In this document: one piece after another, positions 10,776 to 59,772 of the stretch
Layout: every line of letters starts with the position of its first letter
How positions within the stretch are numbered: the first letter of the stretch is position 1
Source: Acidobacteriaceae bacterium
Lineage (GTDB): Bacteria > Acidobacteriota > Terriglobia > Terriglobales > Acidobacteriaceae
Length of the DNA stretch: 64,000 bases
Direction: 5' to 3'
Assembly: GCA_025462885.1 (NCBI GenBank)
Contig: JAOAPN010000006.1
Location: 124,001-188,000 of the forward strand
The notes under the pieces: model-generated
What the model was told of the DNA's origin: nothing
What the model saw: the letters and a program-made list of their open reading frames with translations, nothing else
Databases searched by the model: none
Made by a program: the position numbers and the translations under genes

Positions 10776-10778
10776 GAG

Positions 10779-10970
10779 TTAGAGAGCGCACCGCCGCGGC
10801 ATCGGAGTTAATGCCGGCTCGCTTCTGCCAAGGAGCGAGAGCCGCCGGGCGCTCTCCCGTTCGATTAGCGCCTGAAGGGCCACTTGGAGGAGAGTCGATA
10901 TTTCTTTGATCCCGGTAAGCGAAATTGCCTTCGCGATCTGCACTTCGTCCAACACAATGTTCATATACAT
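10779..10970 (-). CDS. VapB-family antitoxin-like protein (no adjacent toxin)
   Basis: MYMNIVLDEVQIAKAISLTGIKEISTLLQVALQALIERESARRLSLLGRSE resembles the VapB family consensus. Confidence 0.65.
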   Translation of the reverse strand: MYMNIVLDEVQIAKAISLTGIKEISTLLQVALQALIERESARRLSLLGRSEPALTPMPRRCAL

Positions 10971-11253
10971 AGAGTTCTCTCGCTCCCTCGGTCCGCAAAA
11001 GTCACTTTTGACTGGGTCAGCGCGCCACCGGAAAGTATCCGATCCGCTGCAACCATCATTTCACTTGACGGCCTCTTCCCTAAGTTCTAATCTGTGCCCA
11101 TCTTCGACATTCGTTTGGCACTACCAGCCAATCCGGTCGCAGTCCAGAAGCGCTACCCACGCGCCGCTACCTCCCGCCCGTCCCTTCTACCCATCCCAGC
11201 GTCCCATATGCAGTCAACCACCCCGCACATCCTGACGGAGGTCAGATCACTCA

Positions 11254-12291
11254 TTGAATAAAAAGGCCATCGAAATCACGCCCGGTATTGAGCCCCTGTA
11301 CGGGACCCGCGACGAAAACCTTCGCCTCATGGAAGATGGCCTTCACGTCAACATCGATCTCCGCTCTGACGCCATCCACGTCACGGGGCCGGACGATGCG
11401 GTGAATCGTGTGGTCGGGATCTTCTCTGACTTCGACTCCCTTCGCAAATCCGGCGTTCACCTGCATAACGGCGAACTCCACGGCATGCTCAAACTCGTCA
11501 TCGCCGACCCTGCTGTCACACTCCGCTCCCTTATGGACGCCGGCAAGCAGCGCTCCGCTGGCGTCAAGCGCATGGTCCAGCCTCGCAGCCCGAACCAGCG
11601 CAAGTATGTTGAATCCATCGAGCAGTCCGATATGACCTTCGGCCTCGGACCCGCCGGTACCGGCAAGACCTACCTCGCTGTCGCCATGGCCGTCTCCGCG
11701 CTGGTCGCGAAGAAAGTCAGCCGCATCATCCTGGTTCGGCCTGCGGTTGAGGCAGGGGAGCGCCTCGGCTTCCTGCCCGGCTCGCTGCAGGAGAAGGTCG
11801 ATCCCTACCTGCGTCCGCTCTACGACGCGCTCTACGACCTGCTCGACCCGATGAAGGTCGACAAGCTGTTGGAGTCCAACGTCATCGAGGTCGCCCCGCT
11901 CGCTTTCATGCGCGGCCGCACCCTGTCCGATGCCTTCATCATTATGGACGAGGCCCAGAACACCACCATCGAGCAGATGAAGATGTTCGTCACCCGCCTC
12001 GGCAATAACTCCAAGGCCGTCATCACCGGCGACCTCACCCAGACCGATCTACCCAACCCGAAGAAGTCCGGCCTGCTCGACGCCCTCAACGTGCTCTCTG
12101 GCGTGGAGGGGATCAAGTTCTGCCACTTCGAGGATGTGGACGTCGTCCGGCACCATCTGGTCCAACGCATCGTCCGCGCCTACGACAGCTACGGCAAGGC
12201 CCAGCAGCAGCTTCCGCTTCCCATCGGCGAGGCTGTCCTGGCTGGTTCACCATTAGCTGCCGAGGCAAAGCACATCCCCAAACCCCAGTAG
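11254..12291 (+). CDS. phoH: PhoH family protein (PhoH-like ATPase)
   Basis: [19 protein letters not shown] Walker [12 protein letters not shown] Walker B; TTG start. Confidence 0.92.
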
Positions 12292-12342: not shown

Positions 12343-13089
12343 ATGCCCATCTCGTACGTGCGTCGACTGACGGGGAGCGAACGAAGTCAGCAATCCAACC
12401 GTCACCTTGCCCTCGTCCTGGCCTTCGTCGCGGGCAGCATCAATGCGGGCGGCTACCTGGCCGTCCGGCAATACACCTCCCACATGTCGGGGATCGTCTC
12501 CTCGATCGCAGATAATCTTGCTTTAGGCGATGTCGGCTTGATGCTTGCCGGAGTTGGCGCTCTGTTGGCGTTTATTGCCGGAGCCGCCTGCACCGCGCTG
12601 CTGGTCAACTGGGGTCGAAGGCGGCATCTCCACAGCGAGTACGCCTTTCCTCTGATGCTGGAGTCTGCGCTGCTCATCTGCTTCGGCCTGATGAGCGGAT
12701 ACCTCGAACATCGCCAATGGCTCTTCTTCTCCTCTGTCACCGTCCTCCTCTGCTTCACCATGGGTCTCCAGAACGCCATTATCACCAAGATCTCCCATGC
12801 CGAGATCCGCACCACCCACGTCACCGGCATTGTGACCGACATCGGCATCGAGTTAGGCAAGCTATTTTATTGGAACCGCTCCCCCGGCCAGCGCGTTACA
12901 GCCGACTGGCAGAAGCTGCGGCTGCTCTCCTCGCTCTTCGGCCTCTTCATCTTCGGAGGGCTGGTCGGAGCCCTCGGCTTCAAACATATTGGTTTTCTGT
13001 CGGCACTTCCTCTGGCTGTCCTGCTCTTCGTCCTGGCAGCAATCCCGATCGTCGATGATCTACGCGCCATCCATGTTTCCGCACATTGA
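12343..13089 (+). CDS. YoaK/DUF1275 family membrane protein
   Basis: AFVAGSINAGGYLAVRQYTSHMSGIVSSIADNLALG and MGLQNAIITKISHAEIRTTHVTGIVTDIGIELGK. Confidence 0.88.
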   Translation: MPISYVRRLTGSERSQQSNRHLALVLAFVAGSINAGGYLAVRQYTSHMSGIVSSIADNLALGDVGLMLAGVGALLAFIAGAACTALLVNWGRRRHLHSEYAFPLMLESALLICFGLMSGYLEHRQWLFFSSVTVLLCFTMGLQNAIITKISHAEIRTTHVTGIVTDIGIELGKLFYWNRSPGQRVTADWQKLRLLSSLFGLFIFGGLVGALGFKHIGFLSALPLAVLLFVLAAIPIVDDLRAIHVSAH

Positions 13090-13191
13090 ACTGCGCCCGG
13101 ACGACCCGATTCCTGCATGAAGTTCGCGCCGATGCGATACCATCGATAGTAGAGACCGGATCCAGCGCAAGCCTCGATCTCTCCGTCGCCG

Positions 13192-13770
13192 ATGATCACC
13201 ATCGAACCCCCCAGTACTATTCCCATTCCCGTGCTGTCGAAGCCCAGCCTGACGCGCTTCCTGAGCCGCGCCCGCGCTGCGGTCGGTCTCGTTGGTCAAG
13301 TCGAAGTCCTGCTTAGCTCCGACGCCGAACTCAAACGCCTGAACCGTGCCTATCGCGGCAAGAACAAGGCTACCGACGTCCTTAGCTTCCCGACTCCTCC
13401 GGAGATCGCCGATCATCATGCCGGCGACCTCGCCATCTCGATCGACACCGCCGCTCGCCAGGCCAGCTCCTTCGGCCATTCCCTCGAAGTCGAGATCAAG
13501 GTTCTGCTGCTCCACGGCCTGCTGCATCTCAGCGGGGAAGACCACGAAGTCGATGACGGCGAGATGGCAGCACTCGAGTCTGAACTCCGTACGAAGCTGA
13601 AGCTACCCGTGAGCCTCATCGACCGTGTCACCAACCCGGTCAAGCCCGTGACGAAGATCAGTGCGAAGCCAAAAACGCCATCAAAGCTGAAGACGTTTGC
13701 GAAGGCGAAGCCTAAAACTCCGGCCAAGCCAAAGCCCAAGGCTAAACTGACGAAGCGAGGTCGCGCATGA
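13192..13770 (+). CDS. ybeY: rRNA maturation RNase YbeY with Lys/Pro/Ala-rich C-terminal extension
   Basis: YRGKNKATDVLSFP and HGLLHLSGEDHE metal-binding motif; tail KPKTPSKLKTFAKAKPKTPAKPKPKAKLTKRGRA. Confidence 0.9.
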   Translation: MITIEPPSTIPIPVLSKPSLTRFLSRARAAVGLVGQVEVLLSSDAELKRLNRAYRGKNKATDVLSFPTPPEIADHHAGDLAISIDTAARQASSFGHSLEVEIKVLLLHGLLHLSGEDHEVDDGEMAALESELRTKLKLPVSLIDRVTNPVKPVTKISAKPKTPSKLKTFAKAKPKTPAKPKPKAKLTKRGRA

Positions 13771-15248
13771 GCTTCCTATATCCCATCGCGCTTACCTTTC
13801 TCCTGGCCGTACTCGCCCTGGTCGCCTACGTCGACAGGATTTACTCCGAGATGGGTAAGTTCCTCGCCCGCGAGTATCAGGACAACATCGACGCCTGGGA
13901 ACAGGTCGTCGAGCCTCGCCTGCATCTCTCCCGCGAGTCGGTCACGCTCTCCGCATCGATCCTGCGCCAGCTTACGGTCGCGACGATTGCGCTGATGTCC
14001 GGTCTGCGTCTCTACACCCACACCACGCTGCTGCCGAAGCTCGTCCAGATCCCCGAGAACTGGGACATCGTCCGCACGGCCTGCGAACTGGTGCTGCTCA
14101 TCCTCATCTTCGACCGGCTGGTCCCGCAGATCCTCTTCACCCGCACCCGCGGTCTTTGGATCGCGCGTATTCGCGTCGTGCTGGAAGTCCTCTTCTACAT
14201 CATCCTTCCGATCACTATGCTGCTGCAGCTACTGCTCTCCATCGCCGCGCTGGCTGAGCCCGAGGACGCCACCGAAGAGGAGCATCCCTCCGAGGCCATG
14301 GACGCGCTGCTCGAAGCAGGCGAAGAGGAAGGCATCCTCGAAGAGTCCGACCGTGAGCTGGTTCGCTCTGTCATCGAGTTCGGGGACAAGGTCGTTCGCG
14401 AGGTGATGACGCCGCGCCCCGAGATCATCGCCGTGTCCGCCTCGCTGACCCTGCAGCAGTTCACCGAGGTGATTCAGCGGACCGCTTTCTCCCGCGTTCC
14501 GGTGTATATCGCCTCGCTCGATCACATCACCGGCATCGCCTTCGCCCACGATCTGCTGCATGTCGCCGATACGGACGCCCGGCACCGCACCGTGGCCCAG
14601 ATCCAGCGTCCCGTCGCCTTCGTTCCCGAGACCAAGAACGTCGCCGAACTTCTCCGCGAGATGCAGCGTGAGAAGCAGCACATGCGCATCGTCATCGACG
14701 AGTATGGCGGCGTCGCCGGCCTCGTTACGATCGAAGATCTCCTCGAAGCCATCGTGGGCAACATCGCCGACGAGCACGATGACACCGAGCCCGACGATAC
14801 CCCCATCCGTGAGGCCAACGGAGCCTATACCGTGTCCGGGTCTTTCGAGCTCTCCCGGCTACGTGACCTCTTCGCCGACCAGTTCGAGCCTGCCCACAAG
14901 CCGCACCTCACCCGGCCGCCCGAAGATCTGGAATCCACCGATCCCGACGACTCCGACGAAGCAACGGACGCGGACGAGCAGGCCCATGCCGAGTCGCAGG
15001 CCGAGGCTCTCCGCAAGCTGGAGGCCCGCGATCAGCGCGACAACCGCGACGATCCCACCGCTCTCCGGCTGCCGGAGCACTATGAATCCACCACCATCGG
15101 CGGCCTCGTCTCCGAGATCGCCGGGCACATCCCTCTACCCGGCGAAGTCGTCGAAGAAGATGGATTGCGCCTGGAAGTCCTGGCCAGCACCGACCGCCGT
15201 GTCGACCGCGTTCGCGTCAGCCTGGCCACGTCACCTGACAGCGAATAG
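13767..15248 (+). CDS. Hemolysin family / CorC-HlyC CBS-domain membrane protein
   Basis: DUF21-like TM region, two CBS domains (MTPRPEIIAVSASLTLQQF, RIVIDEYGGVAGLVTIEDLLEAIVGNIADE), C-terminal transporter-associated domain. Confidence 0.9.
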   Translation: MSFLYPIALTFLLAVLALVAYVDRIYSEMGKFLAREYQDNIDAWEQVVEPRLHLSRESVTLSASILRQLTVATIALMSGLRLYTHTTLLPKLVQIPENWDIVRTACELVLLILIFDRLVPQILFTRTRGLWIARIRVVLEVLFYIILPITMLLQLLLSIAALAEPEDATEEEHPSEAMDALLEAGEEEGILEESDRELVRSVIEFGDKVVREVMTPRPEIIAVSASLTLQQFTEVIQRTAFSRVPVYIASLDHITGIAFAHDLLHVADTDARHRTVAQIQRPVAFVPETKNVAELLREMQREKQHMRIVIDEYGGVAGLVTIEDLLEAIVGNIADEHDDTEPDDTPIREANGAYTVSGSFELSRLRDLFADQFEPAHKPHLTRPPEDLESTDPDDSDEATDADEQAHAESQAEALRKLEARDQRDNRDDPTALRLPEHYESTTIGGLVSEIAGHIPLPGEVVEEDGLRLEVLASTDRRVDRVRVSLATSPDSE

Positions 15249-15255
15249 CGTCTCA

Positions 15256-15462
15256 TTAGGCAGTATCGACATATAGCTTTTGGAAGGGCACACCTTCAGG
15301 TGTGCCAAAGCTATGTTTTTTAATTTGTTTCTTTGCCGGTTCGCCATAGGCGAACCGGCAAAGAAACAAGAGAATAGAGGAAAATACTCTTTCGGCACGG
15401 CTGAAGCCGTGCCCTTCCCAATCCTCAAAATTCAATCAAACCAGAGACAATCTATTGCCTAA
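15256..15462. repeat. MITE-like/REP composite element, copy 2, with a 19-bp perfect hairpin
   Basis: Left end TTAGGCAGTATCGACATAT shared with copy 1; palindromes at 15287-15306, 15327-15367 and 15394-15413; right end TATTGCCTAA. Confidence 0.65.
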
Positions 15463-15471
15463 GCAAAAACT

Positions 15472-15501
15472 GCGCCGCTCCTCATAACAGGGGAGCGGCG
15501 C
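15472..15501 (-). terminator. Rho-independent terminator of mreB
   Basis: Minus strand GCGCCGCTCC ... GGAGCGGCGC followed by GTTTTTG. Confidence 0.75.
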
Positions 15502-38730: not shown

Positions 38731-38766
38731 CCGCACAGCATATAACGGCGTCTTCTTCTGAGTGGC

Positions 38767-38774
38767 TGTCGACA
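38767..38774. promoter_or_regulatory. TGTCGACA palindrome 1, candidate operator
   Basis: Perfect 8-bp palindrome between divergent GntR and sialidase-like genes. Confidence 0.4.
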
Positions 38775-38854
38775 TGGATTTTGATGGATACTGGTGTGGC
38801 GAATCCGCCCTACGTTTCGCTCGGATGTATCTTTATATCGCGTCGGGCATAGAT

Positions 38855-38864
38855 ATGTCGACAT
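38855..38864. promoter_or_regulatory. ATGTCGACAT palindrome 2, candidate operator
   Basis: Perfect 10-bp palindrome 89 bp from the first copy. Confidence 0.4.
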
Positions 38865-38923
38865 CAAGACGACATTGCGATATATTTCGCTCATCAGCTT
38901 CGGAAACATTCCAGGAGAAGTGT

Positions 38924-40219
38924 ATGCAGCGGTCACAAGTTTTATGTGGGATGGTGTTGATACTCGCCGTCAGTTCGCTGCCGGTGGTGGCGCAGACGAA
39001 AGTCGTAAAGGAAGCGATCTTCGCGCCGGGCTCGGTCTCATTTCCCGCGAGTCACGCATCCACTGTGGTGGAGCTGAAAGGTGGAGAGTTGCTTTCAGCC
39101 TGGTTCGGGGGAACGGCGGAGGGTAAGCCCGACGTCGCGATCTGGGGTGCGCACAAGTCTACTGTCGGGTGGTCGGTGCCTGTCGAACTGGCGCGCGAGC
39201 CCGACGTCCCTTGCTGGAATCCCGTGCTCTTCCACACCCGGGATGGGATGCTCTGGCTGTACTACAAGTTCGGGCCCAGCCCCGGGACCTGGACCGCGGC
39301 GCGAAAATTCAGTACGGACGAGGGCCTGACCTGGAGCGTTCCAGACTACATCCCTGCGGGACTGGTGGGTCCGGTGCGGGCCAAGCCGCTGGTGCTCGAA
39401 GATGGCACGATCCTGAGCGGAAGTTCGGTCGAGTCGTATCGCTCCTGGGCAGTGTGGATCGAGCGGAGTACAGACGGTGGCAAGACCTGGACGAAGACCG
39501 GGCCGATTGTTCCCCCGATAGAGAGTGCCAAGGCTGAGTTGAGTCGCGGGCCGGCGCCAGTCCTTCCGGGGAGCACGAAGCCGAAGGATTCGGCAGTGAC
39601 CCGGGGGATCATTCAGCCCTCAGTGGTTTCGCTGGGCGGGAAGCATCTTCGGCTGTATGCACGGTCGACTCCGCTGACCCAGCGGGTTGTGGTGTCGGAC
39701 TCTTTCGATGCCGGTGTGACGTGGACGCAGGGGCGGGCGCTGGATGTTCCGAACCCCAACTCCGGGCTGGACGCAGTGGCGCTCCGGGACGGACGGGTAG
39801 TGATGATCTACAACAATACCTCGACTGGACGAAGCCCTCTGAATCTCGCCGTGTCGACCGACGGAGAGCACTTCCGCATGTTTTACACGCTGGAGGAGGC
39901 CGAGGGTGAGTTTTCCTATCCGGCGATCATCCAGGCAGCAAATGGAGATCTTGAGATGACCTATACCTGGCAGCGGAAGACTATCGAGCACGTTCATTTC
40001 CCGCTGGCCGAGGTTCCGAAGTATGGGTTTTCGGCCGCCGGATTTCATAAGGAAAAGGATGATTTCGATGCAAAACAAGCTGATTTACGGAGTGTATGCA
40101 GCGGTGCTTACGCCGCGGCATGGGGACGACGAAGTGGACGTCGAATCGCTCGCTGGGTTGATTCGGTTTTTGTTGTCGAAGGGTATTTCGAAGTTTGCGA
40201 TGAACGGCGCGACCGGTGA
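38924..40219 (+). CDS. BNR-repeat / exo-alpha-sialidase-like secreted protein
   Basis: Three Asp-box-like motifs (STDEGLTW, STDGGKTW, SFDAGVTW); signal peptide MQRSQVLCGMVLILAVSSLPVVAQT; C-terminal limit uncertain (overlaps next gene). Confidence 0.78.
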   Translation: MQRSQVLCGMVLILAVSSLPVVAQTKVVKEAIFAPGSVSFPASHASTVVELKGGELLSAWFGGTAEGKPDVAIWGAHKSTVGWSVPVELAREPDVPCWNPVLFHTRDGMLWLYYKFGPSPGTWTAARKFSTDEGLTWSVPDYIPAGLVGPVRAKPLVLEDGTILSGSSVESYRSWAVWIERSTDGGKTWTKTGPIVPPIESAKAELSRGPAPVLPGSTKPKDSAVTRGIIQPSVVSLGGKHLRLYARSTPLTQRVVVSDSFDAGVTWTQGRALDVPNPNSGLDAVALRDGRVVMIYNNTSTGRSPLNLAVSTDGEHFRMFYTLEEAEGEFSYPAIIQAANGDLEMTYTWQRKTIEHVHFPLAEVPKYGFSAAGFHKEKDDFDAKQADLRSVCSGAYAAAWGRRSGRRIARWVDSVFVVEGYFEVCDERRDR

Positions 40220-40985
40220 GTTCTGCCTGACGACACCCGAACAGCTGAGGACGATTCTTGCGACGGTGCAACAGGCGAGCGCCGGGAAGGCGGAGATTCT
40301 CTGCGGGGTGGGAGCTGCAGGAGTCGTACAAGCTAGGGAACTGGCGTCGATTGCGGAACATGCCGGAGTGAAGGGCCTGCTGCTGCCGATGCCTTACTTC
40401 TTTCCGTATCAGCAGGAGGACCTGGAGTTGTTCTGCCGCGAGGTGGCGACGAGCACGCAACTTCCGATTCTGCTTTACAACCTGCCTCAGTTCACCTCCG
40501 GTCTTGAGAAGGAGACGGTCCGGAGGCTGATCGTCGAGGTGCCTAACATTATAGGGATCAAGGATTCGAGCGGATCGCTGGAGATTCTGCGCGACCTCAC
40601 CCAGCACGGAGTGGATGCCTGCCGGATTGTCGGGAACGACAGTGCGCTGGCTCCGGCACTGTGCGAGGCCGTCTGCGACGGGGTGGTGTCGGGCGTAGCG
40701 TGTGCTCTGCCGGAGGTGATTCTGGAGATCTACCAGTCGGAGCCGGAATCTGCGGATTTTGTGCGGGTTGACGCACTGCTGCGGGAGTTTATTGCGCAAC
40801 TGGATCCGTTCCCGACTCCGTGGGGCCTTAAGTGGGCTGCGGAGGCACGGGGAATCTTGCGAGCTACATTCTCGCAACCTATTACGGAGCATCGTACCGA
40901 GCAGCACATGGCGCTCAATGCGTGGCTGGCGGAGTGGCTCCCCGCGGCGCTTGTGCATCAGAGTGTGCAGAAGGTCTCTCGATAG
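40068..40985 (+). CDS. Dihydrodipicolinate synthase / N-acetylneuraminate lyase superfamily aldolase
   Basis: GATGEFCLT, LLYNLPQFT, NIIGIKDSSGS Schiff-base lysine motif. Confidence 0.87.
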   Translation: MQNKLIYGVYAAVLTPRHGDDEVDVESLAGLIRFLLSKGISKFAMNGATGEFCLTTPEQLRTILATVQQASAGKAEILCGVGAAGVVQARELASIAEHAGVKGLLLPMPYFFPYQQEDLELFCREVATSTQLPILLYNLPQFTSGLEKETVRRLIVEVPNIIGIKDSSGSLEILRDLTQHGVDACRIVGNDSALAPALCEAVCDGVVSGVACALPEVILEIYQSEPESADFVRVDALLREFIAQLDPFPTPWGLKWAAEARGILRATFSQPITEHRTEQHMALNAWLAEWLPAALVHQSVQKVSR

Positions 40986-44933: not shown

Positions 44934-45136
44934 GGGAATTCACCTGAAGAGCTTTGTTCTAAATGGGATCCGTCGCGTGTTTCTGTTCTTGAGACTGGGT
45001 TAAGGCGTGTCTGGTTGTCTACTTACGCAAGGCAGACAAAGTTCGGTAAGCTGTAGCTGCAAACAGCCACACATCACGACCCTGGCCATTGGATGGTTTT
45101 AATCTGCACTTTGCAAAGAGACAGGACAAAATCAGA

Positions 45137-47600
45137 GTGAAAGCAGCGCGGACAACCACATTTTAGGGCAGAACAGGCCGCCGGGCTGCAGTACCGGCAC
45201 TCGTTCTGGCTTTGATGGCTTTCACTCTCCCGTCGACCCTGCGAGCGCAGATGGATGCGGCCGCCAGCATCTTTGGTGGACAGCCTGCGCAAGACGGGAC
45301 AGACGGGCCCCGACTCTACTTCTAGGGTGCCGCAGAGCAACGTAGTCACAACGACTACGACGCGGAGAGGCATCGGCTCCCAGCCCAGCGCTGCTGGTGC
45401 GGCTACTGCGGCGGAACGCCAAGTGACCCGCCCTGCCATCGCACCCACACCCGATACCGAATTTCAAAGGATGGTGTCGGCGACGACGGGAAGGCAGCTT
45501 CCGATCTTCGGGGCGTCGCTCTTTGCAGGAGACGTTCCTTCGACCTTCGCCCCCGTGGACGATATCCCTGTCGCTCCCGACTATGTAATCGGTCCCGGAG
45601 ACGAGCTCCGCCTCCAGGTCTGGGGCCAGGTGAACCAGGAAGGTTCCTTCGTAGTGGACCGGACCGGGGCAATCTCAGTGCCCCAGATGGGGACCGTCCA
45701 CGTGTCGGGACAGCGCTACGACCAATTGAGCGATTTCCTGAAGGCCCAGTTCGGACGCGTCTACCGGAACTTCAACCTGAATGTGAACATGGGCCAGTTG
45801 CGCTCCATCCAGGTCTTCATTGTCGGACAGGCCCGCCGTCCCGGAAGCTATACCATCAGTTCGCTCAGCACGCTGCTGAACGCCCTGTTTGCCTCCGGCG
45901 GTCCCATGCCACAGGGGAGCGTGCGGGATATCCAGGTAAAGCGCGGAGCGGAGACCATCGTCCACTTCGATCTCTACGATCTGCTGCTGCACGGGGATAA
46001 GAGCAAAGATATCGTCCTGTCGCCCGGGGACGTGATCTTCAGCCCTGCTGTCGGTCCGCAGGTGGCCTTACTGGGCAGCGTGAATAATGCTGCCATCTAT
46101 GAATTAAAGAAAGACCCGGCCAGTGCGACCACTGTCTCGGATCTGTTGGAATTGGCGGGTGGCCGCACCAGCAGCGCAGCCGGAACTCAGGTCCGTCTCG
46201 AACGCATCGTGAACCACCAGGTGCTCAGCATCCTCGATGTCGACCTTGGCAGCACGGCAGGAGCTGTCTTACAGGGTGGAGATATGGTCTCGGTGACCTC
46301 CATTGTCGATCACTTTAAAGATGCCGTGACCTTGCGAGGAAACGTTGCGAATCCTGGTCGGTATGTCTGGCACACGGGGATGCGGGTTAGCGATCTGATT
46401 CCGAATAAAGACTCGCTCGTAACCCGCAACTACTGGCAGAAGCGCAACGAACTCGGCCAGCTACCTCGGGAGTATCAACCGCAGGTAGACAGCGGCGCTG
46501 CAGGGTCGCTCCAGGTCCGAGGCACAACCGATCTCGCCGCGACGGATCGCGTGACCGAAGGCGGTGCAGCCCGTGCGAGTGAAGGGGGCAATGCCCTGGG
46601 CGCGGCCCTCGCTGGCGGCAGTGGAATCTTTCACGGCATTACCGATGTCGTCTTGAGTGCGCCGGATATCAACTGGAGCTACACCGTCATCGAGCGGCAG
46701 AGAGCATCGGACCTGACCACGACGCTGATCTCCTTCAACCTGGGAAAGGTCGTCCTCGACGGAGATCAGTCGCAGAACATGGAGCTTCTGCCCGGGGATA
46801 TTGTAACGATCTTCTCGACAGCGGATTTGCGCGTTCCAACAACACAGCAGACGCGCTTCGTGAGACTCGAAGGGGAGTTCATTGCGGCAGGCGTCTACAG
46901 CGTGCAGCCCGGAGAGACGCTGCGGCAGTTGCTGAAGCGATCGGGCGGACTCACCCCTGAGGCGTATCTCTATGCGTCGGAGTTTACGCGGCAGTCTACC
47001 AAGCGGGTCGAGCAGCAACGATTGAATGAGTATGCGGACCAGCTCGAAGCCCAGGTCTCGGCGGAGACAAGCGGCATGATCGCGAAGTCCGTAACCGATC
47101 GGGATGCCTCGGCCGCCACTGCTTCTGCGACCGGCGCCTAGGCGGCGATCGCCCGTCTCCGTAGAATTCAGCCGGTGGGCCGCATCGTGTTGCCTCTGAA
47201 GCCGGACACTCGGAGCATCGACGATATTCCCGACTTGGCCCTTGAGGACGGCGATCGCTTCGTGGTGCCGCAGGTGCCGTCGAACGTCAATGTCGCCGGC
47301 CAGGTCTACAGCGCAAACGCGTTCGTGTTCGAGCGAGGGCATCGCGTGAAGGACTACCTGAAGGTCGCCGGCGGACCCAGCCGGCTGGCCAACACAAATC
47401 GTACCTTCGTGCTGCGGGCGGATGGCTCGGTCTTCAGCCATCAGTATGGCAATCTTGAGAAAGCAGTAATGTTCCCAGGCGATACCCTCATCGTACCGAT
47501 GAAGATCGACAAACGAGCTGTGCTTCGCACCCTGGTCGACGTTGCAACAGTCGTTGGGCAATTTGGGATCGGCGTCGCAGCGATCAATGTCTTGAAATGA
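45137..47600 (+). pseudogene. SLBB-domain polysaccharide export protein, disrupted (TAG 45164, frameshift about 45300-45320, TAG 47139)
   Basis: Main ORF 45255-47141: YVIGPGDELRLQVWGQVNQEGSFVVDRTGAISVPQMGTVHVSG; signal peptide lies in another frame; C-terminal segment continues in the same frame after the TAG. Confidence 0.8.
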
Positions 47601-47631
47601 AGCAAAGTGACCTGTGGAGGCTAGACCAGGG

Positions 47632-48780
47632 ATGAAGCAGGGACGCGGGCACCAACTGGATGAAGTCGAGTGGGATGTTGGGAACATCGTGCGCCGGTTG
47701 GTGGCAAAGCGGTCGACTCTACTAATATTTCTCCTTGCAGGGGCGATCGTTGGAATGGGAATTGCGCTGCTCCTGTCCCCGTGGTTCAAGGCCGAGGTGG
47801 TGTTCCTGCCGCCAAAGAATGCGGATCTGCCTGCCAGCCTCTCGGGCTCCTCACTCCTACGCAGCGAAGACACCAGCGATACCTATCTCGGTATGCTCAT
47901 GAGTCGCACGGTTGCAGAGGACGTCGTGGATCATGCCGGCCTGATGAAGGAATACAAGGCGATAACGCGCACCCAGGCAAAGAATGTTCTCTCGGCCAAC
48001 TCCAATTTCCTGGTCAACAAGAACTCGCTCATCGTGGTGGATGTGAAAGCAAAGACACCGCAGTTGGCGGCGAAGATTGCTGACGCGTATCTCGATGCAC
48101 TCTATCGCTTGAATGGTGAGATGGTCGCATCCGCGTCGTTCCATAGGCGGGAGTTTTTTGAGCAGCAACTGGACCAGCAGAAGAACGCATTGGCGCAAGC
48201 TGAGTTGGATATGAAAAAGACTTAGGAGGAGACGGGGCTTGTACTTCCCGCGGGCGAAGCGCAAGCCGGTTTGATGGCGACAGCGCAACTGCAAAGCGCC
48301 ATCGGAACAGCGGAGACGAGGCTAGCTGGCTTGTTGATGGGCGAGACGGAACAAAACCCGCAGGTGACGCAGGCGCGGGCTGAACTTGCAGCGTTGCGCG
48401 CTCAACTCCTCCGGCAGCAGGCCAATACAAAGACGCAAGCTCCTGGAGGCGGCTTGGCGTCGACGGCAAAATTGCCGGCGCTTACGCTGGAGTACATGCG
48501 AAAGGCGCGAGAACTTAAACTGAGGGAGTCGATCTACGATAGTCTCACCCAACAGTATGAAAAAGCGCGTATCGGTTCAATCGATCCTGGTCCGCAGTTG
48601 CAGGTGGTGGATCGAGCGATGATTCCCGAACAAAAGGCCGGACCGCCGCGAAGACTTTGGATGGTTGGAGGCGCTTTTGCCGGGTTGATTCTGGGATTGA
48701 TTCATGTTCTTGTGTGGACAAAATTCCAGAGGACCCTACGGGAGTTACTGTCACCTCCCACTGCCGAAGTCGAAGGGTAG
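47632..48780 (+). pseudogene. Wzz/chain-length determinant family protein split by in-frame TAG (48223-48225)
   Basis: N-terminal EVEWDVGNIVRRLVAKRSTLLIFLLAG ... ELDMKKT* then EETGLVLPAGEAQAGL ... C-terminal TM KFQRTLRELL in the same frame. Confidence 0.82.
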
Positions 48781-48783
48781 AGC

Positions 48784-50114
48784 GTGCAGGATACGAACGC
48801 TTCCATTCAAGCCCCCGAGGCTACCAATCTTTGGTGGGATAAGACTTTCCTGGTACTGGTGGCGACGCTGTCCTCCACCATCGTGCTCAAGGTCGCTCAG
48901 ATCCAATACTGGAGTGGATCTATTTCGTTCAAATCGGCGTCCTGCTGATTGCGTTTCACAGGAACCACTACAGAATCCGCCTGTTTCGGTCCCTGGCAAA
49001 ACTGGGTATTGCCTATACCTTGTTTTGCATCGTTGCCCTGATTCTGTCGCTTGCGGCGTTACGATTCGACTTTTTCTTGCCGGATATGCTGTCCGCAATG
49101 AAATATCCGGTCGTCATTACGGTGTCGCGTGTCGTAGAGCTGGTAGCTTCCGTGGTTATCATGTTTTACCTTGTGAGCGAGTTTGGCCATGACGTAATGA
49201 AGGTTCGGTTCACGATGCGCCTTTACTTCTGGGTGGGTTTCGCGAGCGCCGTCTACTCGATCGTCTGCTATCCACTGGACATCCTTGGGATTGCGAGCCT
49301 CGGAACATATTCCGATCTGCACCGCATGAGAGGGTTCATGAATGAGGGCGGTCCATATGGGTTATATATCCTCAGCGTCCTCCTGGTTGGAGTAGCTCTT
49401 TACCGCCAAGGCTGGGAGCCGACCCGGCGATTGGGTCTGTCGATGGCGGTGATCGGAATAGCATTCCTGAAGAGCGAATCGAAAGCTGCGTTAGCGGTGG
49501 CGCTTTTTTTGTTTCTTCTTAACGGTTTGATGGCTCGCAGCACAGGCAGGCGTGGCATAGTCATCGGAGCCACGATCTTGTTCCTGGCAATTTCCAGCCA
49601 GTTTGTGGACCTGGCAAGAGGGATTCGTATCTACCGGGAGGCGGGTGCGACGTATGAACGAGTTTCGCATCTGCACAAGCAGGATACGAGCTTCGTCGCA
49701 GGGTGGGTAGCAGGTGCGTTCCTTGTTCCCAGGATGATTGCTGCTCATCCCTGGAGCGGAATAGGCTGGGGGAACTATGCGACCATTAGGAATGCCCCGG
49801 AGTATCGCGGCGCTGCGGCATGGGCGAATCTCGCGGACGATCCCGGACTTGGCATCCTCGGTACAGTTGCGGAATTGGGAATCCTATTGGGTGCGTACCT
49901 GATGGTGTGTCTCATCTTTCCTTATTTGTACTTGCGGCGATTGGGAATGCCGCTCTATGTGACAAACCTGGCTTTGCTTCAACCTGTCGTTCACATTTTC
50001 GGAGCGCAGCTCAACATGACCTATCCTTGGATCGTTACCGCATTTGCCTTGGGTCTTGCCTGCGTCTTAGCAAAAAAAATAAGGCGAGATGAATTGTCGA
50101 AGGTCGCAGGCTGA
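48784..50114 (+). pseudogene. O-antigen ligase/polymerase-like membrane protein, frameshifted near 48900-48915
   Basis: Frame 1 MQDTNASIQAPEATNLWWDKTFLVLVATLSSTIVLKVAQIQ then frame 0 LEWIYFVQIGVLLIAFHRNHYRIRL. Confidence 0.72.
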
Positions 50115-50196
50115 AGAAGTGATGGAAGCGGCTGAGTTATATAAGTGGGAAACTTTAAAAAAATAGTCGTCCGTATTCAGGTGCTGGGCGCGAAGG

Positions 50197-51156
50197 ATGA
50201 ACGAGAACAACATGGTTTCAAATGAGAGATATTCGGCACCAGGGGATCGAATCCTGTTGACAGGAGCATCCGGTCAGTTGGGCGGAGAATTGGTAGCCGC
50301 GCTGGCGCCGCTCGGTGAGGTGATCGCACCCGTAAGGGCGCAGATGGACCTCTCGGATGCGGCGGGCGATTTTCGTTTGCTCCGAGAGACGATTCGCGCG
50401 ATGCAACCGCGTTGGATCGTCAATCCTGCTGCGTACACGGCGGTAGACAGAGCCGAGAGTGAGCCGGAACTTGCCTATGCGGTAAACCGGGATGCGGTGC
50501 GGGCCATCGGTGAGGAGGCGCAAAGGATCGGCGCGGTCGTCCTCCATTTCTCTACCGACTATGTGTTCGACGGGCAAGGAACCACGGCCTATGCGGAGAC
50601 GGAGGCGACTGGGCCGGTGAGTGTGTACGGTGCAAGCAAGCTCGCGGGCGAGACGGCTCTGGCAAACACTGGAGCGGGACACATGATCTTTCGCACCAGT
50701 TGGGTCTATGGAAGCCGCGGGAAGAACTTTCTGCTGACGATTCTGAAGCTGGCTCGGGAAAAAGAGGTGCTGCGCATCGTAGGGGACCAGCACGGCGCTC
50801 CAACCTGGAGCAGGGATCTGGCAGGAATGACTGCGGCGGTGATGGCGCGCTGCGAGGTCGAGGCTGTCGATAGCTCGCTGGCCGACGTGATCGAGCGCGT
50901 GGGAGGGGTGTATCACGCGTCCGGAGGCGGCGAGACCACGTGGTTTGGATTTGCGGCGGAGGCGGTGCGCTTGATGAAGCTGGTCCAGCCGGAAGTGAAC
51001 TGGGCTAACATCGAGTCGATTGCAACATCAGAGTATCCGACGCCGGCGAAGCGTCCCGGAAACTCGCGACTGAACTGCGAAAAACTGAAGGAACAGTTTG
51101 GATGGTCGATGATGGATTGGCACGAGTCGCTACGTAAGGTGCTGTCGGAGTTGTGA
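50197..51156 (+). CDS. rfbD: dTDP-4-dehydrorhamnose reductase
   Basis: ILLTGASGQLGGELVAAL; FSTDYVFDGQG; YGASKLAGE. Confidence 0.9.
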   Translation: MNENNMVSNERYSAPGDRILLTGASGQLGGELVAALAPLGEVIAPVRAQMDLSDAAGDFRLLRETIRAMQPRWIVNPAAYTAVDRAESEPELAYAVNRDAVRAIGEEAQRIGAVVLHFSTDYVFDGQGTTAYAETEATGPVSVYGASKLAGETALANTGAGHMIFRTSWVYGSRGKNFLLTILKLAREKEVLRIVGDQHGAPTWSRDLAGMTAAVMARCEVEAVDSSLADVIERVGGVYHASGGGETTWFGFAAEAVRLMKLVQPEVNWANIESIATSEYPTPAKRPGNSRLNCEKLKEQFGWSMMDWHESLRKVLSEL

Positions 51157-51210
51157 TGATTTCATTCAATTGCATCGGAACGACGAATCGAGTCGACGGA
51201 TAAGGAACGG

Positions 51211-52119
51211 ATGCAGGAAGGAACGCGAGTCTGCGCGATTGTCGTGACCTGGCAACCTGGGCAGGAGGTTGCCGGCGAACTTGCGAGACTTCTTTCCCAG
51301 GTCGATGGGATGGTGGTTGTCGATAACGGATCGCGAGTCGAATTGCTGCAAGGAGTCCGCGAAACGAGTCGCGCGTCCGGCTTCAACTTAATCGAGTTGA
51401 AAGAGAACCTCGGTATTGCAGCGGCACAAAATATGGCAATCGCATGGGCAGAGGCGCAAGGTTTCGAGCTTGCCATCTTTTTTGACCAGGACAGTGCGGT
51501 CCCCAATAATTTTGTAAAGACAATGGTTATGTTTTATGACGAAGATTCCAGTAAGAGTACGCTTGCCATCGTAGCGCCACGGTATCGCGACAGCAGACTT
51601 GGAACGGATCTCGCGGCAGCACGAGTTGCGGACGGCGGACTTGCCCTTGCGATGTGCTCTGGAAGTCTGATTCCCTTGACGGTATTGCGTCGTATCGGAG
51701 GGTTTCAAGAGGATCTGTTTATCGACTACGTCGACTATGATTTTTCCCTCCGCGCGCGCGCCGCTGGATATATTCTGAAGGAGTGCAGCGCGGCTGTTCT
51801 ATTGCATGCGCCGGCAGACCCGCAACGTCGGATGCTCTTTTCGCTACTGCCTGTTACGACCGCGAATTACAGCGCGTCTCGACGGTATTATCTCGCCCGA
51901 AACCTGATCTGGATGGTGCGTCACTATAGCTTTCGTTTTCCCGCGATCTGTCTTTGGTTTGGACTCAATTTTTTGAAAGATAGTATCAAGATCGTGCTGG
52001 TCGAAGACAGCGCCCTAGAGAAGTCGCTCGCCTCGATGCGAGGGGTTGCGGACGGACTGCGAGGGAAGATGGGGCGGGCTTCCGGAGACGTCCGGGCAGC
52101 TCGCGGGAGGGCCTTTTGA
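51211..52119 (+). CDS. Glycosyltransferase family 2 (rhamnosyltransferase-like)
   Basis: VDNGSRVELLQ, ENLGIAAAQNMAIAWAEAQGFELAIFFDQDSAVP, LFIDYVDYDFSLRARAAGY. Confidence 0.85.
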   Translation: MQEGTRVCAIVVTWQPGQEVAGELARLLSQVDGMVVVDNGSRVELLQGVRETSRASGFNLIELKENLGIAAAQNMAIAWAEAQGFELAIFFDQDSAVPNNFVKTMVMFYDEDSSKSTLAIVAPRYRDSRLGTDLAAARVADGGLALAMCSGSLIPLTVLRRIGGFQEDLFIDYVDYDFSLRARAAGYILKECSAAVLLHAPADPQRRMLFSLLPVTTANYSASRRYYLARNLIWMVRHYSFRFPAICLWFGLNFLKDSIKIVLVEDSALEKSLASMRGVADGLRGKMGRASGDVRAARGRAF

Positions 52120-53318
52120 AGATAATGCTCCTGTCGTCACTCTACCCGCCGCTCGGACGAGGCGGTGCAGAGAAGGCCGCGTCCCTGCTGGCCGAGGCGC
52201 TCGTGAAGGCCGGCCATGAGGTCAGCGTCATATCGTTTCAGTCTGGAAAAGACGCATCGGTAGAGCACCGGAACGGAGTCCGCGTTCATCGCATCCCGAT
52301 GGACAGTATGTACTGGCCCTTCGGGTGCGTTGAAAAAGAGCATCCCCTCATGCGGCTCCTGTGGCACGCGATCGATATCTGGAATTGGCGCAGCGCACGA
52401 CGGGTCGGCCGCATCCTCGATCTCGAAAAGCCTGACGTAGTGCACTCACACGTGATCGCAGGCTTCTCGGTCGCGGCATGGCGCGAGGTGCGAAAAAGAA
52501 AGATCCGGCTCGTCCACACGCTGCATGACTACTACATGCTTTGCGTGAGGTCGTCGCTCTTTCGGGATGGGCGCATCTGCGAGAGACGCTGTGGCACATG
52601 CACGGTGATGACGCAGGCTCGCAAGATGGCTTCGCAGAAGGTCGACCCGGTCGTCTCCGTGAGCCAATTTGTTCTGAAGCAGCATCAAGGATTCGGGTAC
52701 TTCAAGCAGGTACCGAGCTCAGTGGTATTCAACGTCATGGATGACTCTGGCGCTATGCTGTCTGAGCGCACGCGAACAGCGGAGGATGCGTTGATCTTTG
52801 GGTATATCGGCAAGATCGAGGAGCCTAAGGGGATCGAAGTTGTGCTCACGGCGACGCGGAGTTTGCCAGGGAACGATTGACGGCTGAGGATAGCCGGGGT
52901 TGGACTTCGGGACTACGTGGAACAGTTGAAAGCGCGATTTCCGGACCCAAGGATCGATTGGCTCGGTCTCACGGAATCAAGGGACTTTTATCAATCGATC
53001 GATGTGTCGATCGTGCCGTCCCTCTGGTTCGACCCGCTTCCGTATGTCACGATCGAGAGCCTTTTTGCTGGGAAGAGTCTTATCTGCGCTCGCTCGGGCG
53101 GGATCCCGGAGATAGCAGCACTGGGGAAGGTTGTCGAAGTATTTCCGGCCGGGGATACAACAGCGCTGGCGGCAATCATGGGGCGAGCTATAGAAGAGAA
53201 GACGAGGTGGCGACAGGGGGGATTTCTCAATCCGCAGAGTGCGCTTCTTTTTGCTGACTCGACGGTAGCGGCTTCGTATGAGACGAGCTATTGCTGCGGA
53301 CCGAATGGCGCTGCGTGA
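52116..53318 (+). pseudogene. Glycosyltransferase family 4, split by in-frame TGA (52878-52880)
   Basis: N-terminal LSSLYPPLGRGGAEKAASLLAEAL ... LPGND*; same frame resumes RLRIAGVGLRDYVEQLKARFPDPRIDWLGL ... VPSLWFDPLPYVTIESLFAGKSLICARSGGIPEI. Confidence 0.83.
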
Positions 53319-53463
53319 CATTGCATCCCCATCTGGATTTGACTATCGTGAAGAGCGTGACAGGTGGAACAATCAAGGTCCTTGCAATATGTCCCTCTTT
53401 CTCTGAGCCCGAACTGCGCTCTCGACAGATGCACAGTGCGTCGAGTAGAGGGTGGTTTGCTGC

Positions 53464-54557
53464 ATGAAGACCTTCACCGCAGATCTGCGGATGTATCGGC
53501 ATTCGGGTATCGGACGTTACCTGCGGAACATCTTCCCCTTGCTGCTGCCGCAGCTTCAGGCGGACCGGGTGCGTGTCCTGGGCGAGCGGCCCTCTTCCAG
53601 AATGCTGGATGGCTCGGCGATCCGAGGGTTGAGGTCGTGCACAGTGAGGCGGCCGTTTACAGCATCGGGGAACAGACGCTGGGTCTTCGGGAAGCTTTTA
53701 GCGGAAGTGACCTGCTGTGGATCCCTCACTTCAACGCGCCCTTCCTTTATCCAGGACGGATACTGCTGACGATCCACGACATCGCTCCCCTCGCCATGCC
53801 GGAAATATTGGGCAATACGGTCAAGCGGCGCTACGCCAAGGTTCTGATTGAACGTGCCGTGCAGCGGGCGGTGGCGATCCTTGCAGACTCCGAGTTCACC
53901 GCGTCCGAGTTGCAAGATCGTCTGCATGTGAAAGCGGAAAAGATTACGGTCTCTTATCCCGGAATCGAAGCCTCATGGCCAGAGGCCGGGACCGCCCACG
54001 TTGAGGAGGACGGCAAGCCCTATCTTCTATATGTAGGCAACGTGAAGCCGAACAAGAATCTCAGTCTTCTCTTGCGGGCGTTTGCCCGTGCCGCGAAGGA
54101 TATTCCGTACCGGCTCCTTCTGGTGGGACGCCTCAAAGGTCTTGGCACCGGAGACGAGGGAGTGGTTCGGATGGCCGAGGCAATGGGAGACCGGGTTCGG
54201 TTTGCCGGGGCGGTCTCGGATGCGCAGTTGATCTCCATGTATGCGGGAGCCAGCGCATTTGTGCTCCCATCCCTCTATGAAGGGTTTGGTCTGCCCGTCC
54301 TGGAGGCGATGCGACTGGGGTGTCCCGTACTGTGTTCGACTGCGGCTTCGTTGCCGGAAGTGGCCGGAGATGCTGCAATGTACTTCGACCCCCACTCGGA
54401 GGAGCAGCTCGCCGAGTGCCTGGTCAGAATCCAGAACACTGGGATAGCGGAAGACCTCCGCCGAACTGGTCGGGACCAGGCGCGCAGGTTTAGCTTCGAG
54501 AGGTGCGCGGAACAGTCGGCGGCGCTGATGAATCGATGGATGGAGAACGGGAAATGA
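53464..54557 (+). pseudogene. Glycosyltransferase family 1/4 (group 1), frameshifted near 53575-53600
   Basis: MKTFTADLRMYRHSGIGRYLRNIFPLLLPQLQADRVRVLGE (frame 1) then LFQNAGWLGDPRVEVVHSEAAVYSIGEQ ... LPSLYEGFGLPVLEAMRLGCPV (frame 0). Confidence 0.8.
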
Positions 54558-55105
54558 AGCAACGGGCATTGTTTCTGGATCGTGACGGAGTCGTCAACGA
54601 AGAGGTCGGATACCTCCATCGCACAGAGGATGTGCGATTTGTCGACGGAGTTTTCTCCCTGTGCAGGACTGCGGCGGGGCTTGGCTACCGGTTGGTCATC
54701 GTGACCAATCAGGCCGGAATCGCGCGCGGTTATTACACCGAGGAGGCGTTCCAGGAACTGATGGCCTGGATGCGCGAGCAAGCCAGAAAGCACGGAGTGG
54801 AGTGGGATGCGATCTATCACTGTCCGTACCATCCAGAGCACGGTATCGGACACTACAAACAGGAGCACGAAGATCGAAAACCTGGTATTGGGATGCTGCT
54901 GCGTGGCCAGAAGGCGTTTGGCCTGGACCTGACGCAGTGCGTGATGGTTGGCGATCGATGTACAGATATAGTGGCCGCGAATGCGGCAGGCCTGCGGCAG
55001 GCCTTTCTCGTTGATGGCACGGAGGATAGTGCTGCTTGCGCTGGTTCCTTTATTCCCGTTTCGGGACTGCGCGACGTTGAGTCCTGGTTGGTAGAGAAGG
55101 GATAA
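54554..55105 (+). CDS. HAD family phosphatase, GmhB-like (heptose-1,7-bisphosphate 7-phosphatase)
   Basis: MKQRALFLDRDGVVNEEVGYLHRTEDVRFVDGV; VTNQAGIARGYYTEEAF; VGDRCTDI. Confidence 0.85.
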   Translation: MKQRALFLDRDGVVNEEVGYLHRTEDVRFVDGVFSLCRTAAGLGYRLVIVTNQAGIARGYYTEEAFQELMAWMREQARKHGVEWDAIYHCPYHPEHGIGHYKQEHEDRKPGIGMLLRGQKAFGLDLTQCVMVGDRCTDIVAANAAGLRQAFLVDGTEDSAACAGSFIPVSGLRDVESWLVEKG

Positions 55106-55627
55106 GCATCCGAATAAGCACTGGGCCAGGGCCTTAGCGCAGGATAAATTCTGCTCATGGCCTTCTTTTGCACGACTGTGTACGACATTTCGGGTTTTTG
55201 GCAATATCGCTTGTCAAACGCCACGTTTTTGGCTACTGTGAGCACACTTGCTTTACTTGAAGTTCTTCAATTGCAATAAGATGTACCCACTTGGTATAGT
55301 GAGTCTAAAGTTTAGGACTTTGCTAGATCCGGGGTGCCCGTTAGTAAACTGAATTGACTGAGCCATTGGCATTGCTCCTTCCGCCTTATGAATGCACTGA
55401 CGGTTCGATGACTGCTTTTCTCTACTCCCCTGCTAATAGATGATGAAGCGTAAGGTGGATAAGCAAGATTCGAGTAACGGCCCTTCAGAAGTTGTGGCCG
55501 TTTCGTGACGATGCGGGGCTGCGAGGCGGAGTGATACTAATAACTGCGAGACCATTCAAGCAAGATAACCGGCATGGCATACACGGAACGTTGCCTCTCA
55601 GGGGCTGCGCCATGCAAAGACAGGACT

Positions 55628-56371
55628 ATGATCTTGGCTGAATATCAATCTCCTGAGTCGCAGATAGCGACCGCTGAGGGCTCATTCCCCTACACAGGAA
55701 CGACCCGCCAGTCTTATTCCAGATCCTACCGTTCCAATCGCATCCCGGCGAAGCTCATTCGGTATCGCATCGTAAAGCGATGTCTGGATATATCCCTGGT
55801 GGTGGCGATGACGCCGGTCTTATTTCCCCTCCTGATCGTTATTGCAGCGATTGTAAAGTTCAATTCCCCTGGACCGGTCTTCTACTCGCATCGGCGAATT
55901 CGCCGCAACGGCGAGTTCTTCTCGATGTGGAAGTTCCGCACCATGTGTCAAAACTCGGCAGAAGTACTGGATCAACATCTGTCCAGGCATCCCGAGGCAC
56001 GGGCGGAGTGGAATAAGTCTCACAAGCTCAAGAAGGATCCCAGGGTTACTCCGATGGGGTCGTTTCTGCGTCGGTACAGTCTCGACGAGTTGCCGCAGAT
56101 GTGGAATGTGTTATCCGGACAGATGAGCCTGGTAGGGCCTCGTCCCATCGTGGCGGCAGAAGTGGAAAAGTATGGCGATTGCTTCGGATGCTATTGCCGC
56201 GTGAAACCGGGTCTTACGGGGCTGTGGCAGGTCTCGGGCAGGAGCACCTTGAGCTACGACGAGCGCGTTGCATTGGACTGCGAGTATGTAGAGCGCTGGT
56301 CGTTGAGCAGGGATTTCGTGATCCTACTTAAGACTTTTATGTCGGTCGTCAACCCGGAAGGCGCCTTCTAG
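55628..56371 (+). CDS. Sugar transferase (undecaprenyl-phosphate phosphoglycosyltransferase, WcaJ/WbaP C-terminal type)
   Basis: [82 protein letters not shown]. Confidence 0.9.
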
Positions 56372-56417
56372 CCCATGCCTCAGTCGTATATTCGACATAT
56401 CTGGTTAGAATAACTGC

Positions 56418-57546
56418 ATGCAACGAGGCAGCCTAGCGAACAGGCAGATGGATTTCAGGCTTGGAATTCCATTGCTGAACACTTTGGCGACGTTCCGGCG
56501 GAGACGTGCGTGGCCCACTGCCATTCGCCGGGTGGGCGTAATGTGTTCTCCGGCTTTGGGAGACACCCTTCTCTTTTCGGGTGCGCTGCAGGACGTCCGC
56601 CGTCACTTTCCGGAAGCTGAGATCGTTCATTTCTGCATGAGCCAGAACCTTGCCGCCGCCGAGTTGATTCCCGGGGCTGACCGGCGCGTCGTGATCGTGT
56701 TGACCAAGCTGGGCGCGACGATTCGCCAGTTGCGAGCCGAGCGGCTGGATGTCCTGCTGGACTTCACCTCGTGGCAGCGTCTGACAGCGTTTTACAGCAT
56801 GATGGCGGGAGCTCAATTTTGTGCGGGCTTCAAGACCCCGGGACAGTACCGGTCGCGCGGATATGACCTCGCAATTCAGCATCGAGACGATCGGCACGAG
56901 GTGGAGAACTTTCGAGAGCTGCTACGAGGGTTGGGGATCGAAGTTGGATCCACGCCGCAGGCAGTCGTCCCGGACGGAGCCAGGCCGCTGGCGCACGAGC
57001 GGGATGTGGTGGTACTTCACCTTTGGCTTCCGGTGTTCGGAGCTGGCTGCGCGAGTGGCCGGAGGAGCGCTGGATCGCGTTGGCACATCGCATCGGCCGG
57101 GAGGAGACGCTGTTCGCCATCACAGCTCATCCGAGGATATGTGGAGAGCTCAGCCGTTCGTTCGCAGGATGGAGGAGGCTGGACTCAGGGCCGAAACATT
57201 CGCGGGTACTGACGGCTTTGTGAGTCTCGCACGCATGCTGGCGGGAGCTCGGGTGCTGGTGAGCGTCAATACGGGCATTATGCATTTGGGAGCGATCCTT
57301 GGAACTCCGACCGTTTCGATCAATGGACCGAATCGGAATGGACGCTGGGGACCCGTCGGGCCGCTGGCTGTGGGAGTGGAAGCGCCGGGAGAAGGGTGTG
57401 GATATTTGCACCTGGGATTCAACTTCGATGGGCAGGCGACAGACTGTATGAACCGGATTACGGTGGAGATGGTAGAAGCGGCGGCGGCGCAGGTGTCGAC
57501 TGTACCGCAGGTGACGGTGGTGGATGCTGACCTCCAGATAAATTGA
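56418..57546 (+). pseudogene. Glycosyltransferase family 9 (heptosyltransferase-like), two frameshifts
   Basis: Frame 0 SPALGDTLLFSGALQDVRRHFPEAEIVHF; frame 2 ASGVRSWLREWPEERWIALAHRIGREETLFAITAHP; frame 1 SEDMWRAQPFVRRMEEAGLRAETFAG...VNTGIMHLGAILGTPTVSINGP. Confidence 0.82.
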
Positions 57547-57577: not shown

Positions 57578-57910
57578 ATGGAAGGAATGCGTGGCATGTT
57601 GCGCGGAGTGCTGGGGCGAAGCCTGCGGGCGATGCCCGAGGAGGACCGCCTGGCTGCGGCGTGGCCGGTAGCGTGTGGGTCGGCGATGGCGGGCCATGGA
57701 GAGGTCAGTGGGTATGACGGTGGGTTGGTCCGGATCGTCGTAACCGATAAAGCGTGGCTGCAGCAGATGCAGTCGATGAGCGGCGTGCTGCAGCGGGAGT
57801 TGGGCAAGATCGCGAGCGTGGCGGTGACCGGGATACACTTTGAGGTGAAGGGTACGCGTCGGGAGGATCCAATGCCCCGGCGGTCCGACGCCCCCACGAT
57901 TCGACGGTAA
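57578..57910 (+). CDS. DUF721/DciA-like protein
   Basis: LRAMPEEDRLAAAWPVACGSAMAGHGEV...LVRIVVTDKAWLQQMQSMSGVLQREL. Confidence 0.75.
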   Translation: MEGMRGMLRGVLGRSLRAMPEEDRLAAAWPVACGSAMAGHGEVSGYDGGLVRIVVTDKAWLQQMQSMSGVLQRELGKIASVAVTGIHFEVKGTRREDPMPRRSDAPTIRR

Positions 57911-57924
57911 AGAGGTAGAGGCTG

Positions 57925-58251
57925 ATGAGTTCGAGTGCAGGTGTATCACTGGACGATGTGAAGCGGGTTGCGGAGTTGGCGAACCTGGAGTTGACCGCTG
58001 AAGAAGAGCCACGGATGCAGCGGGATCTGAACGCCATCCTGGGGCATATCGCCGAGTTGAATGAGCTGGATACGACTGGCGTTCCGGCGATGGCGCAGGT
58101 CGGCGAGATCCTGGGGCTGCTGACGCAGGAGAACGGCGAAGCTCTGCGCGTCGATGCGATTCGGCCTTCGGTGGATCGCATGGCGGTGATGGCTTCGGCC
58201 CCGGAGACGGATGGCCGCTTCTTCAAGGTTCCCAAGGTGATTGAGCGTTAA
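57925..58251 (+). CDS. gatC: Asp-tRNA(Asn)/Glu-tRNA(Gln) amidotransferase subunit GatC
   Basis: LDDVKRVAELANLELTAEEEPRMQRDLNAILGHIAELNELDTTGV. Confidence 0.93.
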   Translation: MSSSAGVSLDDVKRVAELANLELTAEEEPRMQRDLNAILGHIAELNELDTTGVPAMAQVGEILGLLTQENGEALRVDAIRPSVDRMAVMASAPETDGRFFKVPKVIER

Positions 58252-58275
58252 GAACAGTTGGTAGTTATGAGTTGA

Positions 58276-59772
58276 TTGTTGGTAGCGAATGGTTGGGTTA
58301 GGAGATTTGGTTTGGAATTGTTGACGATTGATTCGGTTCGGACGGCGGTTACGGGTGGCACGAAGACGGCGGTTGCGTTTGCGGAGGAGCACTTTGCGCG
58401 GATCGTGGCAGAGGACGGCCCGGCGGGTCCGGACAGTCCAGATGCCAAGGGCATCAATAGCTATCTGACGTTGAGCCGCGAGCGGGCGCTGGCGCAGGCG
58501 GCGAAGGTCGATGCTGCGGTCGCGGCGGGCGAGACGCTTGGGCCGCTGGCCGGGGTTCCGATCGGGATCAAGGACGTGCTGACGATGGTCGGCTCGGCAG
58601 CAACGGCCGGATCGCGGATTCTCGAGGGCTATCGTCCTCCGTACGATGCGACGGCGGTGGCCAAGCTGGAGGCTGCCGGCGCGGTGCTGCTTGGCAAGCT
58701 GAACTGCGACGAGTTTGCGATGGGCAGCTCGAACGAGAACTCGGCCTACGGGCTGGTGCGGAATCCCCGGGCGCTGGATCGCGTTCCGGGCGGATCGAGC
58801 GGTGGCTCGGCGGCGGCGGTTGCGGCAGACTTCGCGGTCGCGACGCTGGGTACGGATACGGGCGGATCGATTCGTCAGCCGGCGGCGTTCTGCGGTGTGG
58901 TCGGTGTGCTGCCGACGTACGGCCGCGTGAGCCGCTATGGGCTGATTGCGTTTGCGTCCTCGCTCGACCGAGTTGGGCCGTTTACACGAACGGTGAAGGA
59001 TGCGGCGACCATGCTGGAGGTTCTCGCCGGCAAGGATGAGCGCGATGCGACCTCGTCCGACAAGGCCGTCGGAAGCTACGTCAGCGACCTGGAGAAGCCG
59101 GTTGCGGGACTACGGGTAGGAGTTCCGGCGGAGTACTTCGGCGAAGGGCTGGACTCGGAGATCCGGGCGGCGATCGAGCGGGTTCTGGATGGGCTGCGTG
59201 CTTTGGGATGCGTGGTGCAGCCGGTGAGTCTGCCGCACACCAAATACGCGGTTCCGACGTATTACGTGATCGCGACGGCAGAGGCTTCTTCGAACCTTTC
59301 GCGGTTCGACGGCGTCCGTTTCGGGCTGCGTGCCGAGGAGGCGAATACGCTTTCGGCGATGTATCGCAGGACGCGCGATGCGGGTTTTGGCCCGGAGGTA
59401 AAGCGGCGCATCCTGCTGGGAACGTATGCGCTTTCTGCCGGGTACTATGACGCGTATTACAAGAAGGCACAGCAAGTTCGTACGCTGCTGACGCGGGACT
59501 TCCTGACGGCGTTCGAGCAGGTGGATGTGATCGTCTCACCAGTCACGCCGACGCCGGCGTTCAAGCTGGGCGAGAAGACCGACGATCCGGTGAAGATGTA
59601 CCTCGAAGACATCTACTCGGTCGCGGCCAGCCTGGCGGGGATCTGCGGCGTAAGCGTGCCGTGCGGGAATACCAAGGATGGCCTGCCGATCGGAGTGCAG
59701 ATTATGGGCAAGCACTTCGACGAGGGCACCATGCTGCGGGTCGCGGCTGTGGTGGAGGATCTGGAGTTCTAG
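58276..59772 (+). CDS. gatA: Asp-tRNA(Asn)/Glu-tRNA(Gln) amidotransferase subunit GatA
   Basis: [53 protein letters not shown]. Confidence 0.95.

Follow-up and report, generated by a model that had tools for sequence, protein, structure and literature searches.

Here we describe an exopolysaccharide (EPS) or capsule-like locus of the Wzx/Wzy type that, judged from its DNA, very probably became non-functional in this strain in the recent past and is now decaying as a block, at a place where much of the genus keeps it. The window, the whole stretch of 64,000 nucleotides that was analysed (G000:C8:124001-188000), belongs to a 319-kb contig of a 5.26-Mb genome assembled in 16 contigs and 99.5% complete. 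Within it, ten polysaccharide genes lie on the forward strand between a tRNA-Met on one side and, on the other, a dciA-like gene, gatC and gatA (57578..59772, also forward), a conserved and intact flank recognised by Pfam and synteny. Frameshift-aware protein-to-DNA alignment against intact homologues, combined with the Pfam domains found on the halves of a gene, places nine lesions, four in-frame stops and five frame changes, in six of the ten genes between 45.1 and 57.5 kb. Decoded in the normal way, this DNA would give no whole exporter, co-polymerase or polymerase/ligase-like protein, nor any of three transferases.

The first gene encodes a polysaccharide export protein with Poly_export and SLBB domains (45116..47600; PF02563, PF10531 and PF22461) and aligns over its whole length, at 74%, with an intact 845-aa homologue in G007. 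It carries a TAG at 45164, a frame change near 45317 and a second TAG at 47139; confidence in the two N-terminal lesions is lower than in the remaining seven, because the signal-peptide region is poorly conserved. The Wzz/GNVR chain-length determinant (47614..48780; 53% to a 407-aa protein of L041) is cut by a TAG at 48223, with the Wzz and GNVR domains on its two halves (PF02706 over its cut-off, PF13807 just below), and the O-antigen polymerase/ligase-like gene (48784..50114; 56% to a 442-aa protein of L041, with intact homologues in G022, G063 and G006) changes frame near 48911; its segment 48909-50111 has no Pfam or NCBIfam match. Further along, the GT4 glycosyltransferase (52116..53318) has Glyco_transf_4 before an in-frame TGA at 52878 and Glyco_trans_1_4 carrying on after it in the same frame; the stop falls inside this second domain, and the breakage is read from the Pfam halves rather than from a homologue alignment. 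A second GT4/GT1-type glycosyltransferase (GT1; 53464..54557; Pfam, and 59% to L161) changes frame near 53585, and the GT9 heptosyltransferase-like gene (56418..57546; 70% to a 380-aa protein of L043) does so near 57028 and 57135, the same two places being found against the L043 and the L078 homologue.

Three genes align without a lesion: rfbD/rmlD, for dTDP-4-dehydrorhamnose reductase (50197..51156; TIGR01214, 305 bits), the gmhB-like heptose-bisphosphate phosphatase of the HAD-IIIA type (54554..55105; TIGR00213 over its cut-off, TIGR01656), and the polyprenyl-phosphate sugar-1-phosphate transferase (Bac_transf; 55574..56371; PF02397, 210 bits). The rhamnosyltransferase-like GT2 glycosyltransferase (51211..52119) is a single open frame with its Pfam domain (PF00535; TIGR01556 below cut-off). 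This division into six broken and four open genes is the one that the original prediction had drawn from the letters and open reading frames. Between gmhB and the sugar transferase, about 470 bp (55106-55573) hold no clear forward ORF; the matching gap in several relatives has an opposite-strand ORF with a match to an rfbC-like protein, and here the stretch may be either a remnant or a promoter region.

With Wzx/Wzy-dependent EPS and capsule loci the block shares a Poly_export/SLBB exporter, a Wzz/GNVR co-polymerase (both present here as pseudogenes), a candidate Wzy/ligase-like gene, glycosyltransferases, the initiating polyprenyl-phosphate sugar transferase and a rhamnose gene. It differs from them in its six broken genes, in the absence of rfbB-rfbA from their usual slot, and in that no tyrosine kinase was found in the block and no Wzx flippase match among its genes with Pfam. 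The locus fits the Wzy type at most in part, or its flippase was encoded elsewhere. For rfbD, the closest named relatives found belong to Edaphobacter (Acidobacteriota); work on Edaphobacter paludis (PMC11354219) reports exopolysaccharide-like material and capsules, and the EPS of Granulicella includes rhamnose (PMC5259719).

Loci of the same genus, in G063, G006, G022, G072 and G005, hold the same families in largely the same order and are unbroken where examined, whereas the host locus is broken; in these relatives rfbB-rfbA usually adjoin rfbD, and the glycosyltransferase content differs from that of the host. The order that recurs is SLBB-Wzz-ligase-rfbB-rfbA-rfbD-(GTs)-gmhB-Bac_transf-GT9-dciA-gatC-gatA, an ancestral layout assembled from parts, as every element occurs together in no single examined stretch. 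Alignment and a genus search both found intact homologues in relatives of copies broken here, and the Wzy/ligase-like protein shares 56% identity with its positional counterpart in G022. No relative closer than G007, at 74% DNA identity, was found. Across the genus, the full-length SLBB homologues among the matches listed are open and only the host copy has the internal stop; the short ORFs are therefore not natural gene boundaries, and homologues sharing the same boundaries, which had been named as the finding that would overturn the proposed decay, did not appear. In a further genome of the genus (G015:C50:56492-57766), a remote homologue of the ligase (36%) shows one internal TAG, which could reflect an independent loss or an alignment running past the gene end.

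The excess of lesions in this locus goes beyond chance. Outside the block, about 0.7 Mb of this genome (about 0.73 Mb of stretches) served as the background, and no convincing lesion was found in its 62 homology-covered genes. By homology, six of ten genes are broken inside against none of about 60 outside (Fisher p = 1.6e-6), a contrast somewhat overstated by the bias of the outside control genes towards conserved ones. An earlier version of this background was confounded by antisense ORFs, and the stricter version is the one used; six flagged outside genes were discarded, as their stops preceded what appears to be the true start or their frames lay on the antisense strand. An ab initio frame model, run at looser settings after an initial one proved too strict, counts 6 events in 12.6 kb inside and 49 in 721 kb outside (0.48 against 0.068 per kb; Poisson p = 2.6e-4), with false positives at operon overlaps included in both counts. 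Homology is preferred to the frame model because the looser settings yield many such false positives at overlapping operon genes. The neighbours had been held intact save for one doubtful case; their intactness stands, now with about 60 outside genes that have no convincing lesion, and the doubtful case stays doubtful. It is a sialidase-like ORF (38762-40219) that continues beyond the C-terminus expected for it and, near 40,070, into the start of a dapA-like gene (40023-40985); the strict frame model flags 40076 as well, and a stop loss or a frame change is possible.

The decay of the locus is best supported as recent, since missense change is not accelerated and the four stops imply only about 1.3% neutral substitution. 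Lineage-specific changes number 33 in the host and 29 in the nearest relative for SLBB (p = 0.70), and 21 and 23 for rfbD; at 140 invariant SLBB sites the host has 2 changes, against 0-8 among intact homologues, so that relaxed-selection tests on missense in SLBB, in rfbD and at invariant sites showed no acceleration. Random point changes would create stops in the frames of the block in 3.6-4.1% of cases, and four stops would thus correspond to about 100 neutral substitutions in 7.9 kb, or roughly 1.3% of sites, a rough estimate from four events. From that much neutral change about 15 excess missense changes would be expected in SLBB and 4 were observed; lesions may be slightly over-represented relative to the missense excess. 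Recent, locus-specific decay, as the original prediction had it, is thus upheld by lesions confined to the block, unaccelerated missense change and open SLBB homologues in the genus.

Several other explanations have to be weighed against this one. An assembly or consensus error limited to the block could have made the stops and frame changes, and the common direction of four of the five frame changes, as aligned to homologues, speaks for it; the original prediction had kept such a fault as a live alternative. We now consider it quite unlikely, because the block is embedded in a 319-kb contig of a nearly complete assembly without Ns, nonsense codons are mixed with frame changes, no base run longer than 4 occurs within 15 bases of any frame change, and errors this dense should hit invariant residues, of which the host SLBB protein has changed no more than intact homologues do. 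The position of the frame changes outside homopolymers and simple repeats makes both sequencing slippage and slippage-type ON/OFF switching unlikely. Phase variation is frequent in EPS and capsule loci, and reversible switching of the locus had been suggested, but nine lesions over six genes, four of them nonsense, together with a lack of simple-sequence repeats where the lesions lie and of strong inverted repeats flanking the block, lead us to set that suggestion aside as extremely improbable. We give virtually no credence to the idea that the short ORFs work as naturally split genes with boundaries of their own: several pieces are indeed long and open, but homologues across the genus are unsplit, and in GT4 the stop falls within the second domain.

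The remaining alternative concerns why the locus was lost. The polymer may have been selected against, for example for escape from phages or predators, with loss of function favoured over neutral change. The number of lesions slightly, and marginally, exceeds that predicted by the missense excess, and PMC5464674 argues that the loss of the polysaccharide PGA by Salmonella is adaptive. The loss of the pgaABCD exopolysaccharide operon is likewise a lineage-specific loss of a polysaccharide locus that relatives keep; there, however, the operon has disappeared and its loss was shown to bring an advantage, whereas in our host the decay is under way and known from sequence. Within one lineage, selection can have favoured no lesion but the first, and the rest fit neutral decay; we judge adaptive loss unlikely. 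A literature search on the pseudogenisation of EPS clusters under relaxed selection returned no match.

Under the favoured reading, recent loss of function followed by decay of the whole block, the polymer would have been abolished by one lesion, which probably struck a gene dedicated to its assembly, and the remaining lesions would then have built up neutrally under relaxed selection; we infer that this polymer is no longer produced. The rest of the genome bears on which genes stayed open. The rfbD in the block is the sole RmlD above the family cut-off in the genome, and rfbC-rfbB-rfbA lie together without an rfbD on contig C10 (L184, G000:C10:790000-809900, at 12867-15485), so that the dTDP-rhamnose pathway is divided between two contigs. 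The gmhB-like phosphatase is the single match to its HAD family (TIGR01656), and hldE and hldD are intact on C15 next to a heptosyltransferase-like GT9. Of the kinds broken in the block, SLBB has intact paralogues on C15 (adjoined by a flippase and a Wzy) and C16, and GT9 has three other, intact copies, on C2, C7 and C15; the sugar transferase has two further copies. Sole copies of rfbD and gmhB beside intact paralogues of the broken kinds fit the loss of a dedicated polymer with its shared sugar supply kept. Near the polysaccharide locus on C15, at least four B12-binding radical-SAM proteins (L187, G000:C15:94901-114800, at 2666-11760) possibly form a further biosynthetic cluster.

Both rfbD and gmhB are probably still under selection, as the genome's only copies that supply other glycans with dTDP-rhamnose and ADP-heptose, and the open GT2 and sugar transferase are perhaps used elsewhere or have simply not been hit so far. 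Selection may explain the retention, as a hypothesis only, because rfbD and gmhB would both escape by chance with p = 0.29, and the four open genes together with p = 0.054, so that the lesion counts are compatible with chance. The stronger form of the idea, that selection works on each gene separately and keeps rfbD and gmhB, as genes the cell cannot do without, like islands in a dying operon on whose residual transcription both pathways now rely, seems to us evenly poised.

The event is ordinary gene loss, of a known kind, caught in progress. It offers a snapshot of the early death of an operon, with enough lesions to give confidence and so short a time elapsed that the proteins have not otherwise changed. 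The distinction between dedicated and shared sugar genes leads to the prediction that rfbD and gmhB would persist and the others be lost. Automatic annotation would return fragmentary EPS proteins for this block, and the strain could be mistaken for a producer of the polymer.
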